A DNA stretch of 64,000 bases from an uncultured Alphaproteobacteria bacterium (GTDB taxonomy: Bacteria; Pseudomonadota; Alphaproteobacteria; Rhizobiales; Ancalomicrobiaceae): positions 1-64,000 of the forward strand of contig CALMFH010000065.1 in the NCBI GenBank assembly GCA_937864925.1, read 5' to 3'. Below, one piece after another: positions 25,690-38,063 of this stretch. The notes below the pieces were generated by a model. That model had not been told where the DNA came from, did no database searches, and was given only the letters and a program-made list of their open reading frames with translations. The position numbers and the translations under genes were made by a program. Positions within the stretch are counted from its first letter, which is position 1. The number at the start of each line of letters is the position of its first letter.

Positions 25690-25705
25690 TGTCGCACACC
25701 CGACA
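25690..25705. promoter_or_regulatory. NifA upstream activating site for nifB
   Basis: TGTCGCACACCCGACA matches the NifA consensus TGT-N10-ACA. It ends 75 bases before the -24 element of nifB. A second near-match (TGT-N10-GCA) lies at 25725-25740. Confidence 0.8.
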
Positions 25706-25779: not shown

Positions 25780-25795
25780 TGGCACGGCCTTTGCG
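25780..25795 (+). promoter_or_regulatory. Sigma-54 (-24/-12) promoter of nifB
   Basis: TGGCACGGCCTTTGCG matches the RpoN consensus TGGCAC-N5-TTGC exactly, with GG and GC ten bases apart. It lies about 36 bases before the nifB ATG and should drive nifB-fdxN-LRV-nifZ-nifT and possibly the two deacylase-like genes beyond. Confidence 0.9.
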
Positions 25796-25831: not shown

Positions 25832-27316
25832 ATGAATCAGCCGATGATCTCACTCGACAGTCTGCTCCAGCCGATCGACATGCAGGCGCTCGAAACGACC
25901 GCGACATCGGGCGGCTGCGCCTCGTCGTCCTGCGGTTCGTCCGCCAAGCCCGACGACATGGACGCCGCCACCTGGGAGAAGATCAAGGATCATCCCTGCT
26001 ACTCCGAAGAGGCGCATCACTACTTCGCCCGGATGCACGTCGCCGTGGCGCCAGCCTGCAACATCCAGTGCAACTACTGCAACCGCAAGTACGATTGCGC
26101 CAACGAGAGCCGCCCGGGCGTCGTCTCCGAGAAGCTCACCCCCGATCAGGCGATGCGCAAGGTGGTCACGGTCGCCAACGAGGTACCGCAGCTCTCGGTC
26201 CTCGGTATCGCCGGCCCGGGCGACGCCTGCTACGACTGGAAGAAGACCAAGGCGACCTTCGCGGCGATCTCCAAGGAGATCCCCGACATCAAGCTGTGCA
26301 TCTCGACCAACGGCCTGGCACTGCCCGACCACGTCGACGAACTCGCCGAGATGAACGTCGACCACGTCACCATCACCATCAACATGGTCGATCCCGAGAT
26401 CGGCGCGAAGATCTATCCCTGGATCTACTACAACAAGCGTCGGTACGAAGGCGTCGAGGCAGCGCGCCTCCTGCACGAGCGCCAGATGCTCGGCCTGGAA
26501 ATGCTGACGGCGCGCGGCATTCTCACCAAGATCAACTCGGTGATGATCCCCGGCGTCAACGACGAACACCTCGTCGAGGTGAACAAGTGGGTGAAGGAGC
26601 GCGGCGCCTTCCTGCACAACGTCATGCCGCTGATCTCCGATCCCGCCCACGGCACGCACTACGGTCTGACCGGCCAGCGCGGGCCGACCGCGGCGGAACT
26701 GAAGGCACTCCAGGACCGGCTCGACGGCGGCGCCAAGCTGATGCGTCACTGCCGCCAGTGCCGCGCCGACGCCGTCGGCCTGCTCGGCGAGGATCGCGGT
26801 CAGGAGTTCACCCTCGACCAGCTGCCCGAAACCGTCACCTACGACCCGGCCAGGCGCGAAGCCTATCGCGAGGTCGTCGCCAAGGAGCGTGGCGACCACG
26901 TCGAGGCCAAGCAGGCGGCGGTGGCGGCGGTCAAGGAGGCCGGCACCGAGGCGAAGTTGCTCGTCGCCGTGGCCACCCAGGGCGGCGGCCGCATCAACCA
27001 GCATTTCGGCCACGCCAAGGAGTTCCAAGTCTACGAGGCGGGTCCGAAGGGCATCACCTTCGTCGGCCACCGCAAGGTCGAGGCCCAGTACTGCGAAGGC
27101 GGCTGGGGCGAGGACGCCACGCTCGACGGCGTGATCCAGGCCCTGGTCGGCGTCGAAGTGGTGTTGTGCTCGAAGATCGGCGACTGCCCGAAGGACATGC
27201 TGACGGCGGCCGGCATCCGCGCCACCGACGATTACGCCTTCGACTACATCGAGACGGCGATCGGCGCCCTCTATGCCGCCGAATTCGGCGTCGAGGCGAT
27301 TTCGGCGGTCGCCTGA
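25832..27316 (+). CDS. nifB: Nitrogenase cofactor biosynthesis protein NifB
   Basis: 494 aa radical-SAM enzyme that builds NifB-co, the 8Fe-9S-C precursor of the nitrogenase cofactors. The radical-SAM cluster is C-x3-C-x2-C at Cys76, 80 and 83 (ACNIQCNYCNRKYDC). Further conserved segments include VLGIAGPGDACYDWKKT, HVTITINMVDPEIG, KINSVMIPGVND and RHCRQCRADAVGLLGED. A NifX-like cofactor-binding domain forms the C-terminus (about 375-490, VAVATQGGGRINQHFGHAKEFQVYE). The start at 25832 follows GAGGGGAG. It is first in its operon and controlled by the sigma-54 element at 25780. Confidence 0.97.
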   Translation: MNQPMISLDSLLQPIDMQALETTATSGGCASSSCGSSAKPDDMDAATWEKIKDHPCYSEEAHHYFARMHVAVAPACNIQCNYCNRKYDCANESRPGVVSEKLTPDQAMRKVVTVANEVPQLSVLGIAGPGDACYDWKKTKATFAAISKEIPDIKLCISTNGLALPDHVDELAEMNVDHVTITINMVDPEIGAKIYPWIYYNKRRYEGVEAARLLHERQMLGLEMLTARGILTKINSVMIPGVNDEHLVEVNKWVKERGAFLHNVMPLISDPAHGTHYGLTGQRGPTAAELKALQDRLDGGAKLMRHCRQCRADAVGLLGEDRGQEFTLDQLPETVTYDPARREAYREVVAKERGDHVEAKQAAVAAVKEAGTEAKLLVAVATQGGGRINQHFGHAKEFQVYEAGPKGITFVGHRKVEAQYCEGGWGEDATLDGVIQALVGVEVVLCSKIGDCPKDMLTAAGIRATDDYAFDYIETAIGALYAAEFGVEAISAVA

Positions 27317-27483: not shown

Positions 27484-27675
27484 ATGGCCTTCAAGATCAT
27501 TGCCTCCCAATGCACCAGCTGCGGCGCCTGCGAGTTCGAATGCCCCTCCGCCGCCATCCGGATGAAGGGTGAGACCTACATCATCGATGCGGCCAAGTGC
27601 ACCGAATGCGACGGCATGGACACCCAACAGTGTGCCGCCGTCTGCCCGGTACCGAAGACCTGCATCAAGGCCTGA
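27484..27675 (+). CDS. fdxN: 2[4Fe-4S] ferredoxin, FdxN type
   Basis: 63 aa low-potential bacterial-type ferredoxin. The first cluster motif is [11 protein letters not shown] (Cys10, 13, 16, 20); the second is C-T-E-C with an insertion, then C-A-A-V-C (Cys39, 42, 50, 54), typical of nif-linked FdxN. Homologues next to nifB donate electrons for NifB-co synthesis or to nitrogenase reductase. An AGGAGA site precedes the ATG. It follows nifB by 167 bases with no sigma-54 element of its own, so it is probably in the nifB transcript. Confidence 0.93.
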
Positions 27676-27706: not shown

Positions 27707-28501
27707 ATGGCGGGATCCGAGAGCGAGCGCGCCGAACCGGTGCCCGAGCCGGTCGTCGAGGACGAGACGGTCGACTGGTTGGGCAATCCGGTGTCGTGCA
27801 AGGACTGCGCGCACGAGGAGAACCGACGCATCGGCTTGTGCGACCTCGGTCGCGCCTGCGTCAACGACCGGCGCGGCCGGCGGATCGAACGGTTCTTCGC
27901 CGCCGATCCCCGCCAGGCCGATCGTTATCTCGGCCATCCCTATTTCGAGGTCAGGACACTGGCGGCGAAATACGCCGGCCTGTTCCGCCTCCCGGTGTTG
28001 ATCGAGGACCCCGAGCCGGAGGTCCGGGCCATGGTGGCGTCGCGCCTGCCCAAGGTCAGGATCCGCGGTCTCGTCGCCGACCCCGATCGGCGGGTGCGGA
28101 TGGCCGTGGCGCGCCGGCTCGACGGCGACGATCTCGTGCCGTTGCTCGCCGATCTCGACTATGGCGTCCGCCTCGCCGCGGCGCGCAAGGCGGCGCCTGG
28201 ACTGCTCGTCCGTGTGTTGCACGATGCCGATGCCGAAATCCGTCGCGAGGCGGCGCGTCGCATCGACGATCATCTCCTCGTGGCGCTGGCCGCCGACGAG
28301 GATCCGACGGTCCGCCGGATCGTCGCCGAACGGATGCGGCCCGAGCATCTGACGCTCATGGCCGCGGACGAGGATGTGAGGGTGCGTTTCACCGTGGTGG
28401 AACGTTGCCCGGTCGCGGAGGCCGAGGGCTTCCTCGACGACGCGGAGGACGTGGTGCGTGAAGCCGCGCGCCGACGTCTCGACGAGATCGGAGGTGGATG
28501 A
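27707..28501 (+). CDS. Leucine-rich-repeat-variant (LRV) Fe-S protein of nif clusters
   Basis: 264 aa. The N-terminal part carries a four-cysteine cluster motif, C-x2-C-x10-C-x5-C (CKDCAHEENRRIGLCDLGRAC, residues ~36-56), the LRV FeS4 cluster domain. It is followed by about eight LRV helical repeats (EDPEPEVRAMVASRLP, ADPDRRVRMAVARRL, ADLDYGVRLAAARKA and so on). Such proteins sit after nifB/fdxN in several diazotrophs; the biochemical role is not settled. It starts 31 bases after fdxN and ends overlapping the nifZ start (ATGA). Confidence 0.85.
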   Translation: MAGSESERAEPVPEPVVEDETVDWLGNPVSCKDCAHEENRRIGLCDLGRACVNDRRGRRIERFFAADPRQADRYLGHPYFEVRTLAAKYAGLFRLPVLIEDPEPEVRAMVASRLPKVRIRGLVADPDRRVRMAVARRLDGDDLVPLLADLDYGVRLAAARKAAPGLLVRVLHDADAEIRREAARRIDDHLLVALAADEDPTVRRIVAERMRPEHLTLMAADEDVRVRFTVVERCPVAEAEGFLDDAEDVVREAARRRLDEIGGG

Positions 28502-28815
28502 TGGGGCTCGGACGCGAGGAAGAGGTCGAGATCCGCAAACCCCCGGTGTTCGAGCCGGGGGAGCGGGTTCGGGCTCGGCGCATGGTCAAGAACGACGGCA
28601 CCTATCCACGGAAGGAGATCGGCGAGCCGCTCGTGATGAAGGGCGACACCGGCTACGTCCGCGACATCGGCACCTTTCTGCAGATGTTCTGGATCTACGC
28701 GGTCGAATGGCCGGAGCGTCGCACCATCGTCGGCATGAGAGCCAAGGAACTGGTCAGCCTCGATCGCGAAGCGGAGGCGGAGCCCTGCGGCGATGACGTG
28801 GCCGCGGCGCATTGA
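28498..28815 (+). CDS. nifZ: NifZ-family protein
   Basis: 105 aa. NifZ assists maturation of the P-cluster in the MoFe protein. The conserved NifZ core is visible as PPVFEPGERVRARRMVKNDGTYP and GEPLVMKGDTGYVRDIGTFLQMFWIYAVEW. The ATG overlaps the stop of the LRV gene; a second ATG follows directly at 28501. Codons and spacing indicate translational coupling inside the nifB operon. Confidence 0.92.
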   Translation: MMGLGREEEVEIRKPPVFEPGERVRARRMVKNDGTYPRKEIGEPLVMKGDTGYVRDIGTFLQMFWIYAVEWPERRTIVGMRAKELVSLDREAEAEPCGDDVAAAH

Positions 28816-28890: not shown

Positions 28891-29103
28891 ATGAAGGTGA
28901 TGATCCGCAACACCCCCAAGGGCCTTTCGGCCTACCTCCCCAAGAAGGATCTCGAAGAGCCGATCGTCGAGATGGAGAAGGAAGGGATCTGGGGAGGCTC
29001 GGTGAAGATGAAGAACGGCTGGGTGCTGATCCTGCCCGAGATGCCGGCCGATACCAAGCTGCCGATCACCGTCAACGCCCGCAAGGTCGGCGACGACGAC
29101 TGA
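28891..29103 (+). CDS. nifT: NifT/FixU family protein
   Basis: 70 aa, the full length of NifT/FixU. The family signature is KVMIRNTPKGLSAYLPKKDLEE with a C-terminal GGSVKMKNGWVLILPEMP. The function is not established, and loss is usually tolerated in model diazotrophs. It begins 75 bases after nifZ and closes the recognisable nifB-type run; a 409-base repeat-containing spacer follows. Confidence 0.92.
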   Translation: MKVMIRNTPKGLSAYLPKKDLEEPIVEMEKEGIWGGSVKMKNGWVLILPEMPADTKLPITVNARKVGDDD

Positions 29104-29512
29104 GGGTCTCCGATCGCGTGCCGGGGATGACCGGGTGGGAGGTCCGCGATTCACCGGCGCGCCATCGCCCGAATCCGCCCTCACTCCGCCGTCATCGCCG
29201 GGCTCGACCCGGCAACCCGGCGGCGGTGCCGGTCGTGGCGATGCAGATGGGTCCCCGGGTCGAGCCCGAGGATGACGGGGGTGGAGAGGTTCGAGATCCG
29301 CCCTCGGCATGTCGTGAGGCATCGCCGCGGGCACCTCGCTGCTCCCCTCGCGGGAGAAGGGGAGGGCGGGGCGGCGGCGGAGGTTCCATCCGCCTCCGAG
29401 GAGAGGGGTGCCGGCGTGAGGATGTGACGATCGGGGGGCGAGCCACGGGGCTCGGCCATCGGACGACGACGACGAACGGGGCGCATCGCGCGCCGACGAC
29501 GAGGAGTGAAAG
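29104..29512. other. Spacer between nifT and the SIR2-like gene
   Basis: 409 bases without a gene. It contains a long imperfect palindrome (29189-29278, listed separately), then a second GC-rich repetitive stretch around 29338-29420 (CTCCCCTCGCGGGAGAAG). I found no sigma-54 element. The SIR2-like gene is therefore either read through from nifB or has an unrecognised promoter. Confidence 0.5.
29189..29278. repeat. REP-like intergenic palindrome
   Basis: Two 24-base arms (29189-29212 and 29255-29278) begin CCGTCATCGCCGGGCTCGAC and end GGTCGAGCCCGAGGATGACG, with two mismatches. This form, with a GTCAT edge and a core GGGCTCGACCCGG, is a common dispersed intergenic repeat in Alphaproteobacteria. 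It may act as an mRNA-stabilising or attenuating hairpin after nifT. Confidence 0.65.
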
Positions 29513-30394
29513 ATGACCATGACGGCCACCCGGACCGACCCGATCGTGCTCTCCGGCACGGCGGCCGAGGCGAAGCTCGCCGAGGTGCGCGCCGCCCTCC
29601 TCGCCGACCGGCTGGTGCCCTTCCTCGGCCCAGACGTACTCGCCACCGACGGGGCGGCGCTACCGTTCCCGGCGACCCCCGAGGCGATCGCCGCGGCGCT
29701 GAACAGCCGGGCTCCGGCGCCGTCACGCATCCGCAACTCGATGTGGTCGGTCGCCCAGTTCATCGAGCAGCGCCGCCATCGCAAGACCCTCGTCGGCTGG
29801 ATGGCGGAGATCTTCGCCCCGACCACGACGGCGCCGAAGTTGGTGCGTTTCCTCGCCGGGTTGCCGCTGTCGCTGGTGGTCGACACCTGGTACGACGGCA
29901 CCATCCGCGCCGCGCTGACGGCAGCCGGACGTGAGGACTGGATCGAGATCCAGGGTGTCACCCGCGCCGGCGAGAGCCGCGACATCTGGTACAAGGCCTA
30001 CGATCCGGCCGGCGCCGAGGTGCTGCCCGAGGTCGCGGAGGCGGCGAAGACCGTCCTCTACAAGCCGCACGGCGCCATCTCCCCGGCCAAGAACTTCCTC
30101 GTCGCCGACTCGGATTACGTCGAGGTGCTGACCGAGATCGACATCCAATCGCCGATCCCGGCGGTGGTGAAGGCGCGGCGCACCGCCCGTGGCTTCCTCT
30201 TCCTCGGCTGTCGCTTCCACGACCAGATGCTGCGCACCTACGCCAAACAGATCGCCAAGCGCTCGGCCGGCGGCCATGTCGCGGTCGCCGAGGTCGCCGG
30301 GCTGACGAAGAACGAACGCCGCTTCTACGCCGACCTGGGCGTCACCGTCCTCGACCTACCCCTCGGACGGGTCGTCGATCTTCTGATGGAGTGA
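29513..30394 (+). CDS. SIR2-like domain protein of the nif cluster
   Basis: 293 aa. It resembles the SIR2_2/SIR2-like group rather than classical sirtuins. The motif corresponding to GAG-x-S reads FLGPDVL (37-43), the histidine motif is YKPHGAIS (His186), and the C-terminal Rossmann strand reads GFLFLGCRFHDQM (227-239). Classical sirtuins remove acyl groups using NAD+; SIR2-like proteins of this group often hydrolyse NAD. With the changed GAG motif, activity is uncertain. It starts 409 bases after nifT with an AGGAG site and lies 55 bases before an HDAC-like gene, so the two probably form a unit. From memory, related proteins occur in other nif clusters. Confidence 0.75.
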   Translation: MTMTATRTDPIVLSGTAAEAKLAEVRAALLADRLVPFLGPDVLATDGAALPFPATPEAIAAALNSRAPAPSRIRNSMWSVAQFIEQRRHRKTLVGWMAEIFAPTTTAPKLVRFLAGLPLSLVVDTWYDGTIRAALTAAGREDWIEIQGVTRAGESRDIWYKAYDPAGAEVLPEVAEAAKTVLYKPHGAISPAKNFLVADSDYVEVLTEIDIQSPIPAVVKARRTARGFLFLGCRFHDQMLRTYAKQIAKRSAGGHVAVAEVAGLTKNERRFYADLGVTVLDLPLGRVVDLLME

Positions 30395-30449
30395 TCCGAC
30401 TGCGGACGCGCTAGACTGGCCTCGTCACCCGACTACGAGGCCGCTCGCC

Positions 30450-31481
30450 GTGAAATCCGTCCACTCGCCGCTCCATGCCGGTCACGCCGGTCAGACCGAA
30501 CTCGTCGCCGGCCGCATCCTGCCCGGCTTCGAACGGCCCGAACGGGCGGAGTTCGTCCGTGCCGCGGTCGAGCGCGCCGGCCTCGGTCCGATCCTCGAGC
30601 CGACGCCGCAGACCCTCGACGTCGCCCGGCGTGTCCACCGCCCCGACTACGTCGACTTCCTCCGTCAAGCCTGGGATCTTTGGGTCACCGCCGGCAACGA
30701 CGGCCCGGCGCTGCCCTTCGTCTGGCCGACGCGCGGCCTTCGCGACGATCTCAGACCGGAGAAGATCTCCGCCCTCCTCGGCTTCTATGCCTTCGACGGT
30801 GGTTCTGCCTTCGTCGCCGGCACCTGGGGCGCGATCGAATCCTCCTACGCCTGCGCCCTCACCGCCGCCGACATCGTGGCGGCGGGCGAGCGGGCGGCGT
30901 TCGCGCTCGCACGACCGCCCGGTCATCACGCCGGCCGCCGTACCGCCGGCGGTTACTGCTATCTCAACAACGCGGCCTGCGCCGCGGAGCGACTGCGTGA
31001 TCGCGGGGCGAAGCGTGTCGCCGTTCTCGATGTCGACTTCCACCACGGCAACGGCACCCAGGAGATCTTCTGGACCCGTGCCGACGTCGCGGTGGTGAAC
31101 CTGCACGGTGATCCGGCGACGGAATACCCCTATTTCCTCGGTGCCGCCGACGAGATCGGGGCAGGGCCGGGGGAGGGCTACAACCTCAATCTGCCGATGC
31201 CGCCGGGTACCGACTGGGCGGTCTGGAGTGAGGCGCTCGAGCGGGGATGTCGGCACATCGCCGAAGTCGGGGCAGAGGCGCTGGTCGTCTCGCTCGGGGT
31301 CGACACCTACGAGGGTGATCCGATCAGTCATTTCCGTCTGAAGACCGCCGATTATCCGGCGATCGGCGCGCGCATCGCCCGCCTCGGCCTGCCGACGGTG
31401 TTCGTGCTCGAGGGTGGTTACGCGGTCGCGGCGATCGGCGACAATGTCACCGGAGTCCTGACCGGGTTCGAATGTGCATGA
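30450..31481 (+). CDS. Histone deacetylase / acetylpolyamine amidohydrolase family protein
   Basis: 343 aa from a GTG. Zinc-dependent arginase-fold deacylase. The catalytic histidine pair is in RPPGHHAGR (His159, His160). Zinc ligands are Asp196 and His198 in VLDVDFHHGNGT and Asp285 in SLGVDTYEGDP. GGYCYLNNAACAAERL and the terminal LEGGYAV are also family hallmarks. All key residues appear intact, so activity is expected, on acetylpolyamines or acetyl-lysine. It lies directly after the SIR2-like gene and is convergent with the ferritin-like gene. Its presence inside a nif island is unusual. Confidence 0.85.
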   Translation: MKSVHSPLHAGHAGQTELVAGRILPGFERPERAEFVRAAVERAGLGPILEPTPQTLDVARRVHRPDYVDFLRQAWDLWVTAGNDGPALPFVWPTRGLRDDLRPEKISALLGFYAFDGGSAFVAGTWGAIESSYACALTAADIVAAGERAAFALARPPGHHAGRRTAGGYCYLNNAACAAERLRDRGAKRVAVLDVDFHHGNGTQEIFWTRADVAVVNLHGDPATEYPYFLGAADEIGAGPGEGYNLNLPMPPGTDWAVWSEALERGCRHIAEVGAEALVVSLGVDTYEGDPISHFRLKTADYPAIGARIARLGLPTVFVLEGGYAVAAIGDNVTGVLTGFECA

Positions 31482-31541
31482 CGAACTGCCCTGCCCGCTT
31501 GGTGCGAGCCGGGCATTTCGGTCGATCGGTCGGGCCGAGCC

Positions 31542-32021
31542 TCAGGCGTCGACCGGCAACGGCAGTCCGGCTGCGTGTGCGGCGATCCACTTCTCCAGCT
31601 CGCGGACGTGGCCCTCCTCCTCGTCGACGAACTCCGTGCACAGAGCCCGGATCTCGGGATCGTCGGTGACTGCGAGCACATGAGCATAGAAGGCGAGCCC
31701 GGCTTTCTCCGCCTCGAGCGCGATGGCGAGGGCGTCGTCGCGGGCGATGAACGGATCGGCCGCCCAGATCGCGGCGCGTTCCGGGCTCTCGCCCTGCGGC
31801 CAGTGGAACTCGTGCGGACCCAGCTCCGGGATCTCGCGGAAGCCGGCACGCGCCTTGGCGTCGCCCATGTGCAGGGCCGAATAATCGGAGAGGCGGCGGA
31901 AGAGCCTGGCCACCTCGGCGTTGCCGTAGGTGGCCATGGCGTCGGCGAGCTCGCCGAAGCGCAGCATCGCCTCCTCCTCCAGCTTGATGGCATAGGCGAG
32001 GAATTCCTCGACGTTCTTCAT
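31542..32021 (-). CDS. Ferritin-like / rubrerythrin-family protein
   Basis: 159 aa four-helix protein. Carboxylate residues suitable for a diiron site are seen in EEFLAYAIKLEEEAMLRFGELADAM, ADYSALHMGDAKAR-like helix 2, and IALEAEKAGLAFYAHVL ... FVDEEEGHVRELEKWI (E-x2-H motif EEGH). Family members handle iron, peroxide or oxygen. The ATG at 32021 has an AGGAGA site. It lies 60 bases after the FeSII-type ferredoxin gene on the same strand and probably shares its NifA-controlled promoter, suggesting protection of nitrogenase or iron supply. Confidence 0.78.
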   Translation of the reverse strand: MKNVEEFLAYAIKLEEEAMLRFGELADAMATYGNAEVARLFRRLSDYSALHMGDAKARAGFREIPELGPHEFHWPQGESPERAAIWAADPFIARDDALAIALEAEKAGLAFYAHVLAVTDDPEIRALCTEFVDEEEGHVRELEKWIAAHAAGLPLPVDA

Positions 32022-32081
32022 CGCGGGTCTCCTTGTCGGCGGCGCGAGCGGGCGGGGAGGCTCCCCGCCCACCCGAGGCGA

Positions 32082-32453
32082 TCACTCGGCGCCGCCGGGC
32101 TCGTCGCCGGCGAACTTCACCAGGATGTCCTGGTCGCGGACGATGGTCTGACAGGCGAGCCGATATTTCGGCATGACGTCGTCGGTCTCGGCCCGGGCGA
32201 TCTCGGCATGGGAGATCTTGCCGAGCGACTTCAGCAGGCTCTTCTCCTTGTCGGTGAGCATCGAGCCCATGGTCTTGCCGGTGAGTGTGACGATCTCGCA
32301 CAGGCACGAGCCGCACTCGCCGTCGCGGCATTCGAACGGGATCGGGATCTTGTGCTTCTCGGCGACCGACAGGATCGTGCCACGATCACCGGCGACGGCG
32401 TAGACCGTCACGTCCTTGTGGAGGAGGGGGGAAGAGAAGGTCACGTTGGCCAT
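32082..32453 (-). CDS. 2Fe-2S ferredoxin resembling FeSII (Shethna) protective protein
   Basis: 123 aa. The [2Fe-2S] ligands are Cys42, 47, 50 (FECRDGECGSCLC) and Cys101 (YRLACQTIV), with an extra Cys52. The order N-terminal FSSPLLHKDVTVYAVAG, then TMGSMLTDKEKSLLKSLGKI in mid-protein, then PKYRLACQTIVRDQDILVKF and a GEPGG-like tail resembles what I recall of the Azotobacter FeSII protein, which binds oxidised nitrogenase and shields it from oxygen. An ordinary electron-transfer ferredoxin is the alternative. It is divergent from nifH and has its own sigma-54-like element at 32552-32567. Confidence 0.75.
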   Translation of the reverse strand: MANVTFSSPLLHKDVTVYAVAGDRGTILSVAEKHKIPIPFECRDGECGSCLCEIVTLTGKTMGSMLTDKEKSLLKSLGKISHAEIARAETDDVMPKYRLACQTIVRDQDILVKFAGDEPGGAE

Positions 32454-32920: not shown

Positions 32921-33832
<912 letters not shown>

Positions 33833-33980: not shown

Positions 33981-35486
33981 ATGAGCCTCGATTATGAGAA
34001 CGACGGCGAACTGCACGCCAAGCTGATCGAGGAGGTTCTCGCTCAGTATCCCGACAAGTTCGCCAAGCGCCGCAAGAAGCACCTCTCCGTCGCGGCCGAT
34101 GCCGGCACCGAGGAGATCGAGGGTGAGGCCCAGGCGGTCACCGAGTGCGACGTCAAGTCGAACATCAAGTCGATCCCCGGCGTCATGACCATCCGCGGCT
34201 GCGCCTATGCCGGTTCCAAGGGCGTGGTGTGGGGTCCGATCAAGGACATGGTCCACATCAGCCACGGCCCCGTCGGTTGCGGCCAGTACTCCTGGTCCCA
34301 GCGCCGCAACTACTACATCGGCAACACCGGCATCGACACTTTCGTGACGATGCAGTTCACCTCCGACTTCCAGGAGCGTGACATCGTCTTCGGCGGCGAC
34401 AAGAAGCTCGAGCGCATCATCGACGAGATCGAGAACCTGTTCCCGCTCGCCAACGGCATCTCGATCCAGTCCGAGTGCCCGATCGGTCTGATCGGCGACG
34501 ACATCGAAGCGGTGTCGAAGAAGAAGGCCAAGGAGCACGACACCACCATCGTTCCGGTGCGTTGCGAAGGCTTCCGCGGCGTGTCGCAGTCGCTCGGCCA
34601 TCACATCGCCAACGACGCCATCCGCGACTGGGTCTTCGACAAGAAGGAACGCGAGGTCGTCACCACGCCCTACGACGTCAACGTCATCGGCGACTACAAC
34701 ATCGGCGGCGACGCCTGGGCCTCGCGCATCCTGCTCGAGAAGATCGGCCTGCGTGTCGTCGGCAACTGGTCGGGGGACGCCACCCTCGCCGAGGTCGAGA
34801 ACGCGGTCCACGCCAAGCTCAACCTCATCCACTGCTACCGTTCGATGAACTACATCTGCCGGCACATGGAAGAGAAGTACGACATCCCGTGGATGGAGTA
34901 CAACTTCTTCGGCCCGTCGCAGATCGCCATGTCGCTGCGCAAGATCGCCAAGCACTACGGCCCCGAGATCGAGGCCAAGGCGGAAGCGGTCATCGCCAAG
35001 TACCAGCCGCTGGTCGACAAGGTCATCGCCAAATACGGCCCGCGCCTGAAGGGCAAGAAGGTGATGCTCTACGTCGGTGGCCTGCGCCCCCGTCACGTGG
35101 TCAACGCCTACGAAGACCTCGGCATGGAGATCGCCGGTACCGGCTACGAGTTCGCCCACAACGACGACTATCAGCGCACCGGTCACTATGTGAAGAAGGG
35201 CACGCTGATCTACGACGACGTCACCGGCTACGAGCTCGAGAAGTTCATCGAGAAGGTGCGTCCGGATCTGGTCGGCTCGGGCATCAAGGAGAAGTACCCG
35301 GTGCAGAAGATGGGCATCCCGTTCCGTCAGATGCACTCCTGGGACTACTCCGGCCCCTACCACGGCTACGACGGCTTCGCGATCTTCGCGCGCGACATGG
35401 ATCTGGCGATCAACAACCCGGTCTGGGATCTGTTCGACGCCCCCTGGGCCGCCACGGACGCCCCGCTCGCCGCCGCGGCGGAGTGA
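33981..35486 (+). CDS. nifD: Nitrogenase MoFe protein alpha chain
   Basis: 501 aa. P-cluster cysteines are Cys74 ([11 protein letters not shown]), Cys100 ([10 protein letters not shown]) and Cys166 ([12 protein letters not shown]). FeMo-cofactor is ligated by Cys285 ([10 protein letters not shown]) and His452 ([12 protein letters not shown]). The conserved pocket segment [10 protein letters not shown] and the homocitrate/R-cluster region GGLRPRHVV are present. The length and residues are those of molybdenum nitrogenase, not VnfD or AnfD, which lack companions such as nifE/N here. It is the second gene of nifHDK. Confidence 0.99.
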
Positions 35487-35656: not shown

Positions 35657-37195
35657 ATGCCGCAGTCAGCCGATCGCGTGCTCGACCACGCTCCGCTCTT
35701 CCGCGAGCCCGAGTACCAGGAGATGTTCGCCCGCAAGCGCGCCGAGTTCGAATGCCCGGTGCCGGACGACAAGGTCGCCGAACAGGGCGAGTTCACCAAG
35801 ACCTGGGACTATCGCGAGAAGAACTTCGCCCGTGAATCCCTGGTGGTGAACCCGGCCAAGGCCTGCCAGCCGCTCGGTGCGGTCTTCGCCGCCGCCGGCT
35901 TCTCCCGGTGCATGAGCTTCGTCCACGGCTCGCAGGGCTGCGTCGCCTACTATCGCTCGCACCTCTCCCGTCACTTCAAGGAGCCGTGCTCGGCGGTGTC
36001 CTCGTCGATGACCGAGGACGCGGCGGTGTTCGGCGGCCTGCAGAACATGATCGACGGCCTCGCCAACTGCTCGGCGCTCTATCAACCCGACATGATCGCG
36101 GTGTCGACCACCTGCATGGCCGAAGTCATCGGCGACGACCTCCAGGGCTTCATCTCGAACGCCAAGAAGAAGGGCTCGGTGGCCGAGGACTTCCCCGTCC
36201 CCTATGCCCACACCCCGGCCTTCGTCGGCTCCCACGTCGACGGCTACGACAACATGATCAAGGGCATCCTGGAGAACTTCTGGAAGGGCGCCGAGCGCAC
36301 CCCCGGCACCGCGATCAACATCATCCCCGGCTTCGACGGCTACTGCGTCGGCAACAACCGCGAGCTGAAGCGCCTGCTCGACCTGATGGGCGTCGACTAC
36401 ACCTTCATCTCCGACGCTTCCGACCAGTTCGACACCCCCTCGGACGGTGAGTTCCGCATGTACGACGGCGGCACCACCATCGACGAGGTCAAGGCGGCGC
36501 TGAACGCCAAGGGCACGATCTCGCTGCAGTACTGGAACACCCGCAAGACGATGGACTATATCGCCGGCGAAGGCCAGGAGACCGCGACCTTCCACTACCC
36601 ACTCGGCATCCGCGCCACCGACGCCCTGCTGATGAAGGTCTCCGAACTCTCCGGCAAGCCGATCCCCGAAGCGATCCGCCTGGAGCGCGGCCGCCTCGTC
36701 GATGCCATGGCCGACAGCCAGTCGCACCTGCACGGCAAGAAATACGCGATCTACGGCGATCCCGATTTCGTCCAGGCGATGGCCCGCTTCGTCATGGAGA
36801 CCGGCGGCGAGCCGACCCACTGTCTGGCGACCAACGGCACCAAGGCCTGGGAAGCCGAGATGAAGGAGATGCTCGCGGCCGATCCCTTCGGCGCCTCGGC
36901 TCAGGTGTGGGCCGGCAAGGACCTCTGGCACCTGCGCTCGCTGCTCTTCACCGAACCGGTCGACTTCATGATCGGCAACTCCTACGGCAAGTACCTGGAG
37001 CGCGACACCGGCACGCCGCTGATCCGCCTGACCTTCCCGATCTTCGATCGTCACCACCACCACCGCTTCCCGCTGATGGGCTACCAGGGCGGCCTCAGGG
37101 TGCTGACGACGATCCTCGACAAGGTCTTCGACAAGCTCGACGCCGAGACCATCGTTGCCGGCGTCACCGACTACTCCTACGACCTCACCCGCTGA
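35657..37195 (+). CDS. nifK: Nitrogenase MoFe protein beta chain
   Basis: 512 aa. P-cluster cysteines Cys70 ([10 protein letters not shown]), Cys95 ([20 protein letters not shown]) and Cys153 ([12 protein letters not shown]) are intact, as are the NifK signature [17 protein letters not shown] and the C-terminal [16 protein letters not shown]. With NifD it forms the alpha2-beta2 MoFe protein. It follows nifD by 170 bases with an AGAGAGGTG ribosome site and is the last gene of nifHDK; a GC-rich hairpin lies 33 bases after its stop. Confidence 0.99.
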
Positions 37196-37227
37196 GGAGT
37201 GTCGGGAACCCGACGGTTCGCCACGAG

Positions 37228-37252
37228 ACGGCCGCCCTTCGCGGGCGGCCGT
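37228..37252 (+). terminator. Terminator-like hairpin after nifK
   Basis: Stem ACGGCCGCCC / GGGCGGCCGT with loop TTCGC, 33 bases after the nifK stop, followed by TCCG with no long T run. It is preceded by a small GTCGG/CCGAC hairpin that also resembles a NifA site with one mismatch (TGT-N10-ACG, 37200-37215). Confidence 0.6.
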
Positions 37253-37373
37253 TCCGCGTCTCGGCGGTCGCATTCGCGCCGGTGTCGCGGGGGCGCGTCG
37301 GTCGCTCGTGATTCGAAATTCCATCTTCCCGCCGATTAAACCGGCGTTCACCTCCTCCCCTTATCGTGAGGGG

Positions 37374-38063
37374 ATGGACATCACCTGGCGCCACGGCGAA
37401 GACCCGCTTTCGAAGATCCGCCTCGAGATCGCTCGATCTCGCGCCGGGGATTGCGGTCATCTCTTGAAGCCGCTCGCCGAACTCCACCTCGCCACCCGCG
37501 GCCGACCCGGCCACTACGACGGCGCACTCTATGCCGACACGGTGGCCGAACTCCTCGGGCCGGCGACGCTGTTCGAGCGCATGGCCTTCGCCGACACGGT
37601 CGCCGACGTCGGTGGACTGCCGTCGGCGGTTCTCGCCGCTCTGCTCGCCGACGTCTACCTGGTGTCGCGGCCGATCATCGAACGGGCGCGGCTCTCCGAC
37701 CACGAACTGATCACGGTGATGTTGAGGGATACGAGCGAATCGACCCTTCTCGTCATCGCCGGCCGTGCCGGGACCGGCATTCCGGTTACCGACCGTGTCG
37801 TCGAACACGGCTCCCTCAAGGTCTACCTGACCCTCGCCGCCAACGACGAAGCCAAACTGTCGTCGGCCACCTTCGCCCGCTTCTCCAATCTGACGGCGGC
37901 GCAGAACGACATGGATCTGGCGCTGGCCAAGCGCTCCGATCTGCCGGTCGAAATCGCCAAGGCGCTCTACCAGCGCATCTCCGAACGCAGCCTACGTCGC
38001 GTCGAGGAGATGATGATCCGCGACCGCAACCGCGCCCGCCGCTGTCTCGCCCTCGGCCGCTGA
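37374..38063 (+). CDS. DUF2336 domain-containing protein
   Basis: 229 aa alpha-helical protein that appears to match DUF2336, a domain of unknown function widespread in Alphaproteobacteria. Recognisable segments are GALYADTVAELLG, RMAFADTVADVGGLPSAVLAALLADVYLVSRPIIERARLSDHELI (HEAT-like helices) and RVEEMMIRDRNRARRCLAL. The ATG at 37374 follows GTGAGGGG. It lies between nifK and the nifE promoter and has no sigma-54 element of its own, so it may be read from nifHDK past the hairpin at 37228 or from its own promoter. A role in nitrogen fixation is not established. Confidence 0.7.
   Translation: MDITWRHGEDPLSKIRLEIARSRAGDCGHLLKPLAELHLATRGRPGHYDGALYADTVAELLGPATLFERMAFADTVADVGGLPSAVLAALLADVYLVSRPIIERARLSDHELITVMLRDTSESTLLVIAGRAGTGIPVTDRVVEHGSLKVYLTLAANDEAKLSSATFARFSNLTAAQNDMDLALAKRSDLPVEIAKALYQRISERSLRRVEEMMIRDRNRARRCLALGR

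Follow-up and report, generated by a model that had tools for sequence, protein, structure and literature searches.

A nif-associated SIR2-like protein with altered catalytic motifs, and the adjacent polyamine-deacetylase-type gene, in the nif island of a Siculibacillus-like alphaproteobacterium

Genes for SIR2-like proteins have been reported separately from the nif regions of several diazotrophs, where their products (of the Msi351, ZMO1821, Rcc03262 and PnfA kind) were described as hypothetical, sirtuin-like or presumed deacetylases. Here we compare with them a SIR2-like gene from an uncultured alphaproteobacterium of the family Ancalomicrobiaceae, together with its neighbour, a gene for a histone-deacetylase-like (HDAC-like) zinc enzyme. 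Both lie on contig CALMFH010000065.1 of assembly GCA_937864925.1, whose first 64,000 nucleotides were analysed and are called the window in the following. In Mesorhizobium loti R7A, the sirtuin-like Msi351 is reported to be NifA-regulated and encoded by the last gene in the order nifB-fdxN-nifZ-fixU(nifT)-msi351 (PMC3538637). The gene for Rcc03262 of Rhodobacter capsulatus likewise stands after nifT, with nifB1-rcc03265-nifZT-rcc03262 given as one operon, and the protein was detected in the wild type and absent in a nifA double mutant. ZMO1821 lies within the Zymomonas nif island and is reported to rise under N2 fixation (PMC8600466; PMC8594446), and for Rhodovulum, nif operons are described in which a SIR2-like gene comes after nifT (PMC9412634). 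The 31.7-kDa PST1325 (PnfA) of Pseudomonas stutzeri A1501, elsewhere called a 'SIR2 family protein' (PMC11332353), is encoded divergently from nifH, depends on NifA and sigma-54, and was described as resembling proteins from diazotrophs only, with a second subfamily about 20% identical (PMC2820453). According to the same report, a non-polar pnfA mutant has 23% of the wild-type nitrogenase activity with an unchanged nifH transcript, shows wild-type-like activity when anaerobic and no nitrate-supported fixation (PMC2820453).

The window contains a nif island of a Siculibacillus-like alphaproteobacterium. Its SIR2-like protein is 77% identical to that of the nearest genus-named contig, Siculibacillus sp. 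MAG9 (locus L127), and 71% identical to those of Siculibacillus lacustris (L131) and Pinisolibacter aquiterrae (L129). As a preliminary description made from the sequence alone had stated, the two genes lie 55 bases apart and downstream of nifB-fdxN-LRV-nifZ-nifT; nifHDK follow downstream (Table 1). Each product matches one Pfam family at a threshold of E <= 0.001, and no NCBIfam model was found for either. Our reading is that the SIR2-like protein is a pseudo-sirtuin accessory factor of the nif system, which stands beside a separate, lineage-specific polyamine deacetylase; for this explanation as a whole we estimate a probability of roughly 0.55. By synteny, annotation and size, Msi351, Rcc03262 and ZMO1821 appear to belong to the same family as the window gene, and PnfA is probably a member too. 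The joint view of these genes as one family, with an antiphage-type fold and without the catalytic pair, is a result of the present analysis, and no earlier statement of it was found in the literature, most of which was available at the level of titles and abstracts. The preliminary description had called the gene pair the best candidate for an undescribed regulatory module; this goes too far, since for genes of the SIR2-like kind names, regulation by NifA and mutants have all been published, as has a deacetylase role for ZMO1821.

The co-occurrence with nitrogenase was followed in 41 relatives and 385 genomes of the class, with the SIR2-like protein as query, and in 299 genomes of the phylum, with a profile; some genomes are common to several samples. 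A match was present in all 15 relatives with nifD over the cut-off (one of them, G412, a remote match of 26% identity) and in 0 of the 26 others, three of which belong to the same family as the window genome. The corresponding numbers are 7/13 vs 0/372 for the class and 14/39 vs 1/260 for the phylum, with Fisher p-values, uncorrected for kinship, of 1.6e-11 (relatives), 7.3e-12 (class) and 5.4e-13 (phylum). The sole phylum match without nifD over the cut-off, G648, has a nifE-like match and a short nifD-like fragment that contains a stop; it was counted against co-occurrence. In one class, 3 of the 78 genomes have a remote form of the gene; nifD exceeds the cut-off in two of them, and the third (G479) has a nifE-like match. 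By these counts the nif-associated SIR2 family is restricted to nitrogenase genomes, and the gene studied here is the only SIR2_2 match in its own genome. Partial extra matches to the profile, covering 65-103 positions and in one case containing stops, were seen in two rhizobial genomes (C1526 and C1537 of G421, C47 and C54 of G648) and are perhaps relics of duplicated nif regions.

The position of the gene is similarly constant. Within 700 bases upstream and on the same strand, nifT was found in 102 of the 111 loci with room upstream. Of the 113 stretches, 112 contain a nif gene and the remaining one is a contig end (the 113 loci include some contigs fetched twice). The family is placed in nif operons, typically after nifT, and so is the window gene. 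Among plasmids, 74 records match the SIR2-like protein, and the six places examined all fall within nif regions. The match at H60 lacks an annotated gene but is flanked by nifT and nifZ. The place after nifT also recurs in the annotated plasmid p42d of Rhizobium etli and in a Lotus Mesorhizobium plasmid. A remote subfamily with about 24% identity to the window protein was observed as well (L101 2967-3743, L227 9451-10167, L228, L229 and L236); in it DINRD replaces WYD and Met, Val or Leu replaces His, and in L101 its gene is divergent from nifH, like the reported pnfA. With a protein of this subfamily as query, 72 of the same 72,556 plasmid records were matched, largely of the same genera; the 20 matches listed come from Rhizobium, and 19 carry the annotation SIR2 family protein.

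An AlphaFold2 model of the SIR2-like protein, built with 37 sequences, has a mean predicted local distance difference test (pLDDT) score of 86.1 and presents a SIR2 Rossmann fold with a small helical part. The best chains in a structure search were those of DSR2 (Z 18.8), SPARSA (18.5), ThsA (18.4), KomBC (18.2) and Avs5 (17.1), which match over 244-252 residues, nearly the whole chain, at a root-mean-square deviation of 3.2-3.5; the Foldseek TM-score is about 0.6. Canonical sirtuins follow lower in the list at Z 12-13, and the protein may be their kin too. A phmmer search against the PDB sequences gave no match up to E 5, and a profile search against them gave weak matches, the best with an E-value of 7.2e-5. 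Structure prediction, which had been proposed as a check of the NAD (nicotinamide adenine dinucleotide) pocket, did return the fold of the SIR2 NAD hydrolases (NADases).

The active site of this fold appears to be changed. The profile alignment, at its weak E-values, sets Trp126 opposite the Asn of TTNYD and His186 opposite the His of K-x-HG, both of ThsA, so that a Trp stands where SIR2 NADases have the catalytic Asn and the His is retained. Residues 39-41 read G-P-D at a position where GAG is the usual motif; this exchange had been noted before, the Trp had gone unnoticed. For the family as a whole, 101 sequences (the window included) were reduced to 63 by merging identical ones; addition of nine remote sequences gave 72, and removal of rows at least 85% identical to an earlier row gave 48, with loci L206-L225 outside the set. 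Position 126 is Trp in 43 of these 48 members and Asn in five. The Asn members have Met, Val or Leu instead of the His, while 37/43 Trp members retain it, and Asn and His occur together in 0/48 non-redundant and 0/72 distinct sequences. Four further plasmid proteins all have the Trp; two of them lack the His and none has both catalytic residues. In an unrooted tree the Asn type forms one deep clade and the His-less Trp rows, R. etli CFN 42 among them, are scattered (the tree tool's own count groups the latter as one only since unlabelled rows were omitted). The strongly conserved motifs assigned to the pocket are PxLGP, WYD, DSDYVEVLTEIDIQxPIP and GCRFxDQ, and many residues are invariant, including some in the acidic block D199-D210. 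The zinc-binding module of sirtuins consists of four cysteines; the SIR2-like protein has a single one, C233, and therefore no such module. It thus departs from canonical sirtuins of the CobB type in GPD, Trp126 and the single Cys, with His186 present, and from the SIR2_2 NADase effectors, which have the Asn and His pair, in Trp126. The classical NAD chemistry has very likely been lost, and we read the conserved residues as a pocket that was kept for a purpose other than NAD hydrolysis.

A more specific version of this reading is that the nif SIR2 family goes back to the domestication of an antiphage-type NADase fold, and that two separate changes of the active site (Asn to Trp in one type, loss of His in the other) turned it into a non-catalytic pocket. 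Such a pocket might bind a nucleotide or redox signal or a client of nitrogenase maturation and keep nitrogenase working under oxygen or respiratory stress. We regard this version as possible but less likely than not.

Several observations weigh against the accessory-factor reading. The most conserved block (residues 199-212) was modelled at a pLDDT below 50, and statements about the pocket therefore rest on sequence. His186 is retained in 37 of the 48 members, more than an inert site should need, so another nucleotide chemistry is possible. No match was found in 6/13 nifD-positive genomes of the class and 25/39 of the phylum, so the protein is accessory to nitrogenase; both numbers are upper limits, for the remote-subfamily gene of G479 escaped the profile search and came up with a query from its own subfamily. 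G395, from the same family as the window genome, has a nifE-like match but neither nifD over the cut-off nor a SIR2-like gene. The membership of PnfA rests on annotation, size, restriction to diazotrophs and the place beside nifH. Finally, the pnfA mutant is reported to have still grown on nitrogen-free semisolid medium (PMC2820453), and the msi351::lacZ mutant of M. loti is described as fully effective in symbiosis (PMC3538637), which means that the protein is non-essential. The family is directly testable, since one strong mutant phenotype (in P. stutzeri, if PnfA belongs to the same family) and one absent phenotype (in M. loti) are on record.

The best PDB matches of the HDAC-like protein are acetylpolyamine amidohydrolases (6phr, E 2.9e-113; 9gkz; 3q9b, E 1.9e-102). 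The metal ligands Asp196, His198 and Asp285, named already in the preliminary description, are indeed present, as are His159, His160 and Tyr324, and a PIS motif at 291-293 replaces the PEG gatekeeper. This motif is described as a mark of the polyamine-deacetylase cluster (bacterial deacylase cluster 4), whose members also deacetylate some lysine peptides (PMC11532494), and PA1409 and PA0321 are reported as polyamine deacetylases (PMC4784309). From its sequence the HDAC-like protein is probably an active acetylpolyamine amidohydrolase. The idea that it is an ordinary histone-deacetylase-type gene of its own genome was rejected, for the other two genes of this type, C236 and C115, show similarity to it along part of the length only, at 37% and 33% identity. 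Outside nif regions, a Pararhizobium homologue (62%) lies between a solute-binding ATP-binding cassette (ABC) transporter and aguB (N-carbamoylputrescine amidase), and in Rhizobium sp. BG4 the homologue is accompanied by these transporter genes as well, without a match to aguB. Altogether the full solute-binding transporter set was found in two of nine non-nif contexts (L109-L115, L241 and L242) and aguB in one. The transporter set was not found in the seven contexts L109-L115, the two nearest by tree included, of which L110 and L112 have an ABC ATPase-like match only. Acetylpolyamine terms do not occur among the matches listed by a literature search for a link with nif.

It is possible that the HDAC-like gene is simply a hitchhiker with a general polyamine role, which is expressed by read-through and has no tie to nitrogen fixation. 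The six nif-linked HDAC-like genes form one clade (support 100/99), the 55-base gap before it contains no sigma-54-like site, and homologues of at least 48% identity also occur in genomes without nifD (8 of 26 nifD-negative vs 10 of 15 nifD-positive relatives, p 0.03, uncorrected for kinship). Against this, six genomes from three genera have retained the nif-linked place, with proteins 71-85% identical to that of the window, and a polyamine role in N2-fixing growth is conceivable. We consider the hitchhiker a serious contender, at somewhat less than even odds.

Much less room is left for an active NAD-dependent lysine deacylase or NADase, which would control nitrogenase or NifA via acetylation or NAD. 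A deacetylase role was suggested by its authors for ZMO1821, which rises under N2 fixation, and Nif proteins are acetylated (PMC8600466). The place in nif operons, the NAD-binding fold and the frequent retention of His186 agree with this explanation. However, Trp stands for the catalytic Asn in 43/48 members, the His is missing from the five Asn members and from some of the Trp type (R. etli CFN 42), GAG is altered and SIR2_2 is the one Pfam match. The N112A and H152A exchanges in ThsA are each reported to abolish cleavage as well as binding of NAD, the latter additionally disturbing oligomerisation (PMC7272460). The missing zinc-binding Cys set points the same way: SIR2_2 proteins are described as lacking the zinc module, which canonical sirtuins need in order to deacetylate (PMC12700824). 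NAD use or lysine deacylation by the SIR2-like protein, which the preliminary description had considered, is therefore unlikely, and the same is true of the role published for ZMO1821. Taken as a single family that combines the antiphage SIR2 fold with a broken catalytic pair, these genes speak against the published deacetylase role and direct attention to the binding of a ligand or client.

The preliminary description had gone further and proposed a joint function of the two proteins in nitrogen fixation. They could form one module that removes acyl groups from the same nif targets by two different chemistries. The genes are directly adjacent in G000, G385 and G394 and separated by one or two open reading frames in G386 and G392, the close pairs were found only in nif islands, and the clade of nif-linked HDAC-like genes and the somewhat higher frequency of close homologues in nifD-positive relatives would also fit. 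Nevertheless, the two genes lie within 2 kb in only 5/15 nifD-positive relatives, all of one clade. In seven others (G387, G388, G389, G391, G393, G398 and G408) the stretch downstream of the SIR2-like gene is visible and does not contain the HDAC-like gene; in G412 and G421 the contig ends after the SIR2-like gene. In G397 the HDAC-like gene is on a different contig, next to the ferritin-like and 2Fe-2S genes, and does not occur in the 4.8 kb that follow the SIR2-like gene. G388 shares its genus with G394 and G397 but has only a 54% homologue elsewhere in the genome, so that loss or re-arrangement is likely there. Moreover, the spot after the SIR2-like gene also takes other genes. The joint acylation module reduces to local synteny in one lineage, and we hold a common function of this kind for very improbable. 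Of the proposed role in nitrogen fixation, the part concerning the SIR2-like gene stands, by its co-occurrence with nifD, its place in nif operons and the NifA-dependence in R. capsulatus; the joint module does not, given the 5/15 relatives, the homologues in nifD-negative genomes and the polyamine-deacetylase signature.

Least credible of all is a guard or defence effector watching for phage attack on nif-expressing cells: DSR2, ThsA, KomC and Avs5 have the same fold and PADLOC gave weak ThsA matches (best E 2.2e-8), but the protein has a single domain, the eight neighbouring genes that were checked, fdxN up to the 2Fe-2S ferredoxin, include no defence partner, nif genes accompany practically every locus, the catalytic pair is absent and the R. 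capsulatus gene is NifA-dependent.

If the SIR2-like protein is a pseudo-sirtuin accessory factor, the following course of events can be envisaged. By pattern and by analogy, NifA and sigma-54 would drive the genes from nifB to nifT, and the SIR2-like gene would be reached by read-through. Its product would neither consume NAD nor remove acyl groups, and the rebuilt pocket might bind a nucleotide or a Nif client. The protein would support nitrogenase after transcription and only under some growth conditions, depending on oxygen or the respiratory state; if PnfA is of the same family, this role would matter during microaerobic or nitrate-respiring growth and, going by Msi351, not in nodules. 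In a single lineage, that of Siculibacillus and its close relatives, the HDAC-like gene would have come to stand between the SIR2-like operon and nifH, and its product would recycle acetylated polyamines and share the neighbourhood only.

The candidate sites for NifA/sigma-54 control stand, as patterns, before nifB only. TGT-N10-ACA occurs seven times in the window vs 2.85 expected, and exact matches to a shorter sigma-54 pattern occur five times vs 1.3 expected. Sigma-54-like sites at two mismatches are no commoner than by chance (45 vs 43.8 expected), which is why weight was given to exact sites only. When up to two mismatches are allowed, no such site lies between the promoter of the nifB operon and the end of the HDAC-like gene, the 55-base gap included, the next one downstream being at 31844. 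Promoters of the sigma-70 type were not found in 29000-32000. The gap between nifT and the SIR2-like gene (29104-29512) measures 409 bases and contains a near-perfect palindrome of 131 bases with a self-complementary match at 29186-29281. Since this gap is short in many relatives, the palindrome looks like an inserted extragenic element; it might damp read-through into the SIR2-like gene. A hairpin in the 55-base gap has a z of -2.4, and none was seen by eye in the corresponding gaps of L127 and L128.

Table 1. Features of the nif island around the SIR2-like and HDAC-like genes (positions in the window)
Feature	Position	Strand	Basis
TGT-N10-ACA, putative NifA upstream activator site before nifB	25690..25705	+	pattern match
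Putative sigma-54 -24/-12 promoter TGGCACGGCCTTTGC of nifB operon	25780..25794	+	exact match
nifB	25832..27316	+	open reading frame; label from sequence and gene order of annotated records
4Fe-4S ferredoxin, fdxN position	27484..27675	+	open reading frame and family match
LRV_FeS leucine-rich-repeat-variant (LRV) 4Fe-4S protein	27707..28501	+	PF05484/PF01816
nifZ	28498..28815	+	PF04319, E 2.3e-29
nifT	28891..29103	+	TIGR02934, E 1.2e-29
Long palindrome in the gap from nifT to the SIR2-like gene	29170..29300	+	RNA fold -85.3 kcal/mol, z -6.2
SIR2-like protein, nif-associated family (Msi351/ZMO1821, probably PnfA type), 293 aa, ATG start	29513..30394	+	SIR2_2 PF13289, E 1.3e-20
Acetylpolyamine-amidohydrolase-type zinc deacetylase (predicted), 343 aa, GTG start	30450..31481	+	Hist_deacetyl PF00850, E 1.7e-65
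Rubrerythrin/ferritin-like protein	31542..32072	-	PF02915, E 6.3e-9
2Fe-2S ferredoxin, divergent from nifH	32082..32453	-	PF00111, E 1.9e-11
nifH	32948..33832	+	open reading frame; label from sequence and position beside nifD
nifD	33981..35486	+	TIGR01282, 857.7 bits, over cut-off
nifK	35657..37195	+	open reading frame; label from sequence and position

Some further features of the neighbourhood were observed. Between the HDAC-like gene and nifH, the minus strand carries the ferritin-like and 2Fe-2S ferredoxin genes (31542-32453), which are retained jointly in several relatives (L089, L090, L091, L092 and L108); the 2Fe-2S ferredoxin presumably occupies the place where FdxD might be expected. 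An open reading frame of 302 aa lies between nifK and nifE (37155-38063). The spot after the SIR2-like gene varies among sister genomes (L126 11085-11651; L131 10922-12528; L129 10890-11777); by eye, the open reading frames there are Cu/Zn-superoxide-dismutase-like, flavin-mononucleotide-reductase-like together with shikimate-dehydrogenase-like, or shikimate-dehydrogenase-like alone.

In comparison with the described systems, the HDAC-like protein resembles the known acetylpolyamine amidohydrolases (3q9b, 6phr and PA1409 of Pseudomonas aeruginosa) in full-length similarity, catalytic residues and the PIS motif; it differs from them in standing in a nif island, and its substrate is assigned by sequence. 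The SIR2-like proteins in print are likened to the window protein by description. PnfA shares with it the link to nif, the SIR2 family name and the size, but its gene is divergent from nifH, as in the remote locus L101, and does not follow nifT. Msi351 is sirtuin-like and has the same gene order as the Mesorhizobium loci found here, but its operon is without the LRV gene and its mutant without a symbiotic defect. Rcc03262 and ZMO1821 are likewise SIR2-like, are encoded in nif clusters and were detected during growth on N2, ZMO1821 differing as a proposed deacetylase. With the NADases ThsA, DSR2 and KomC, the window protein shares the fold over the whole chain (best Z 18.2-18.8) and the His of K-x-HG. 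In contrast to these proteins, however, it has Trp in place of the Asn, carries no sensor domain and belongs to a nif context.

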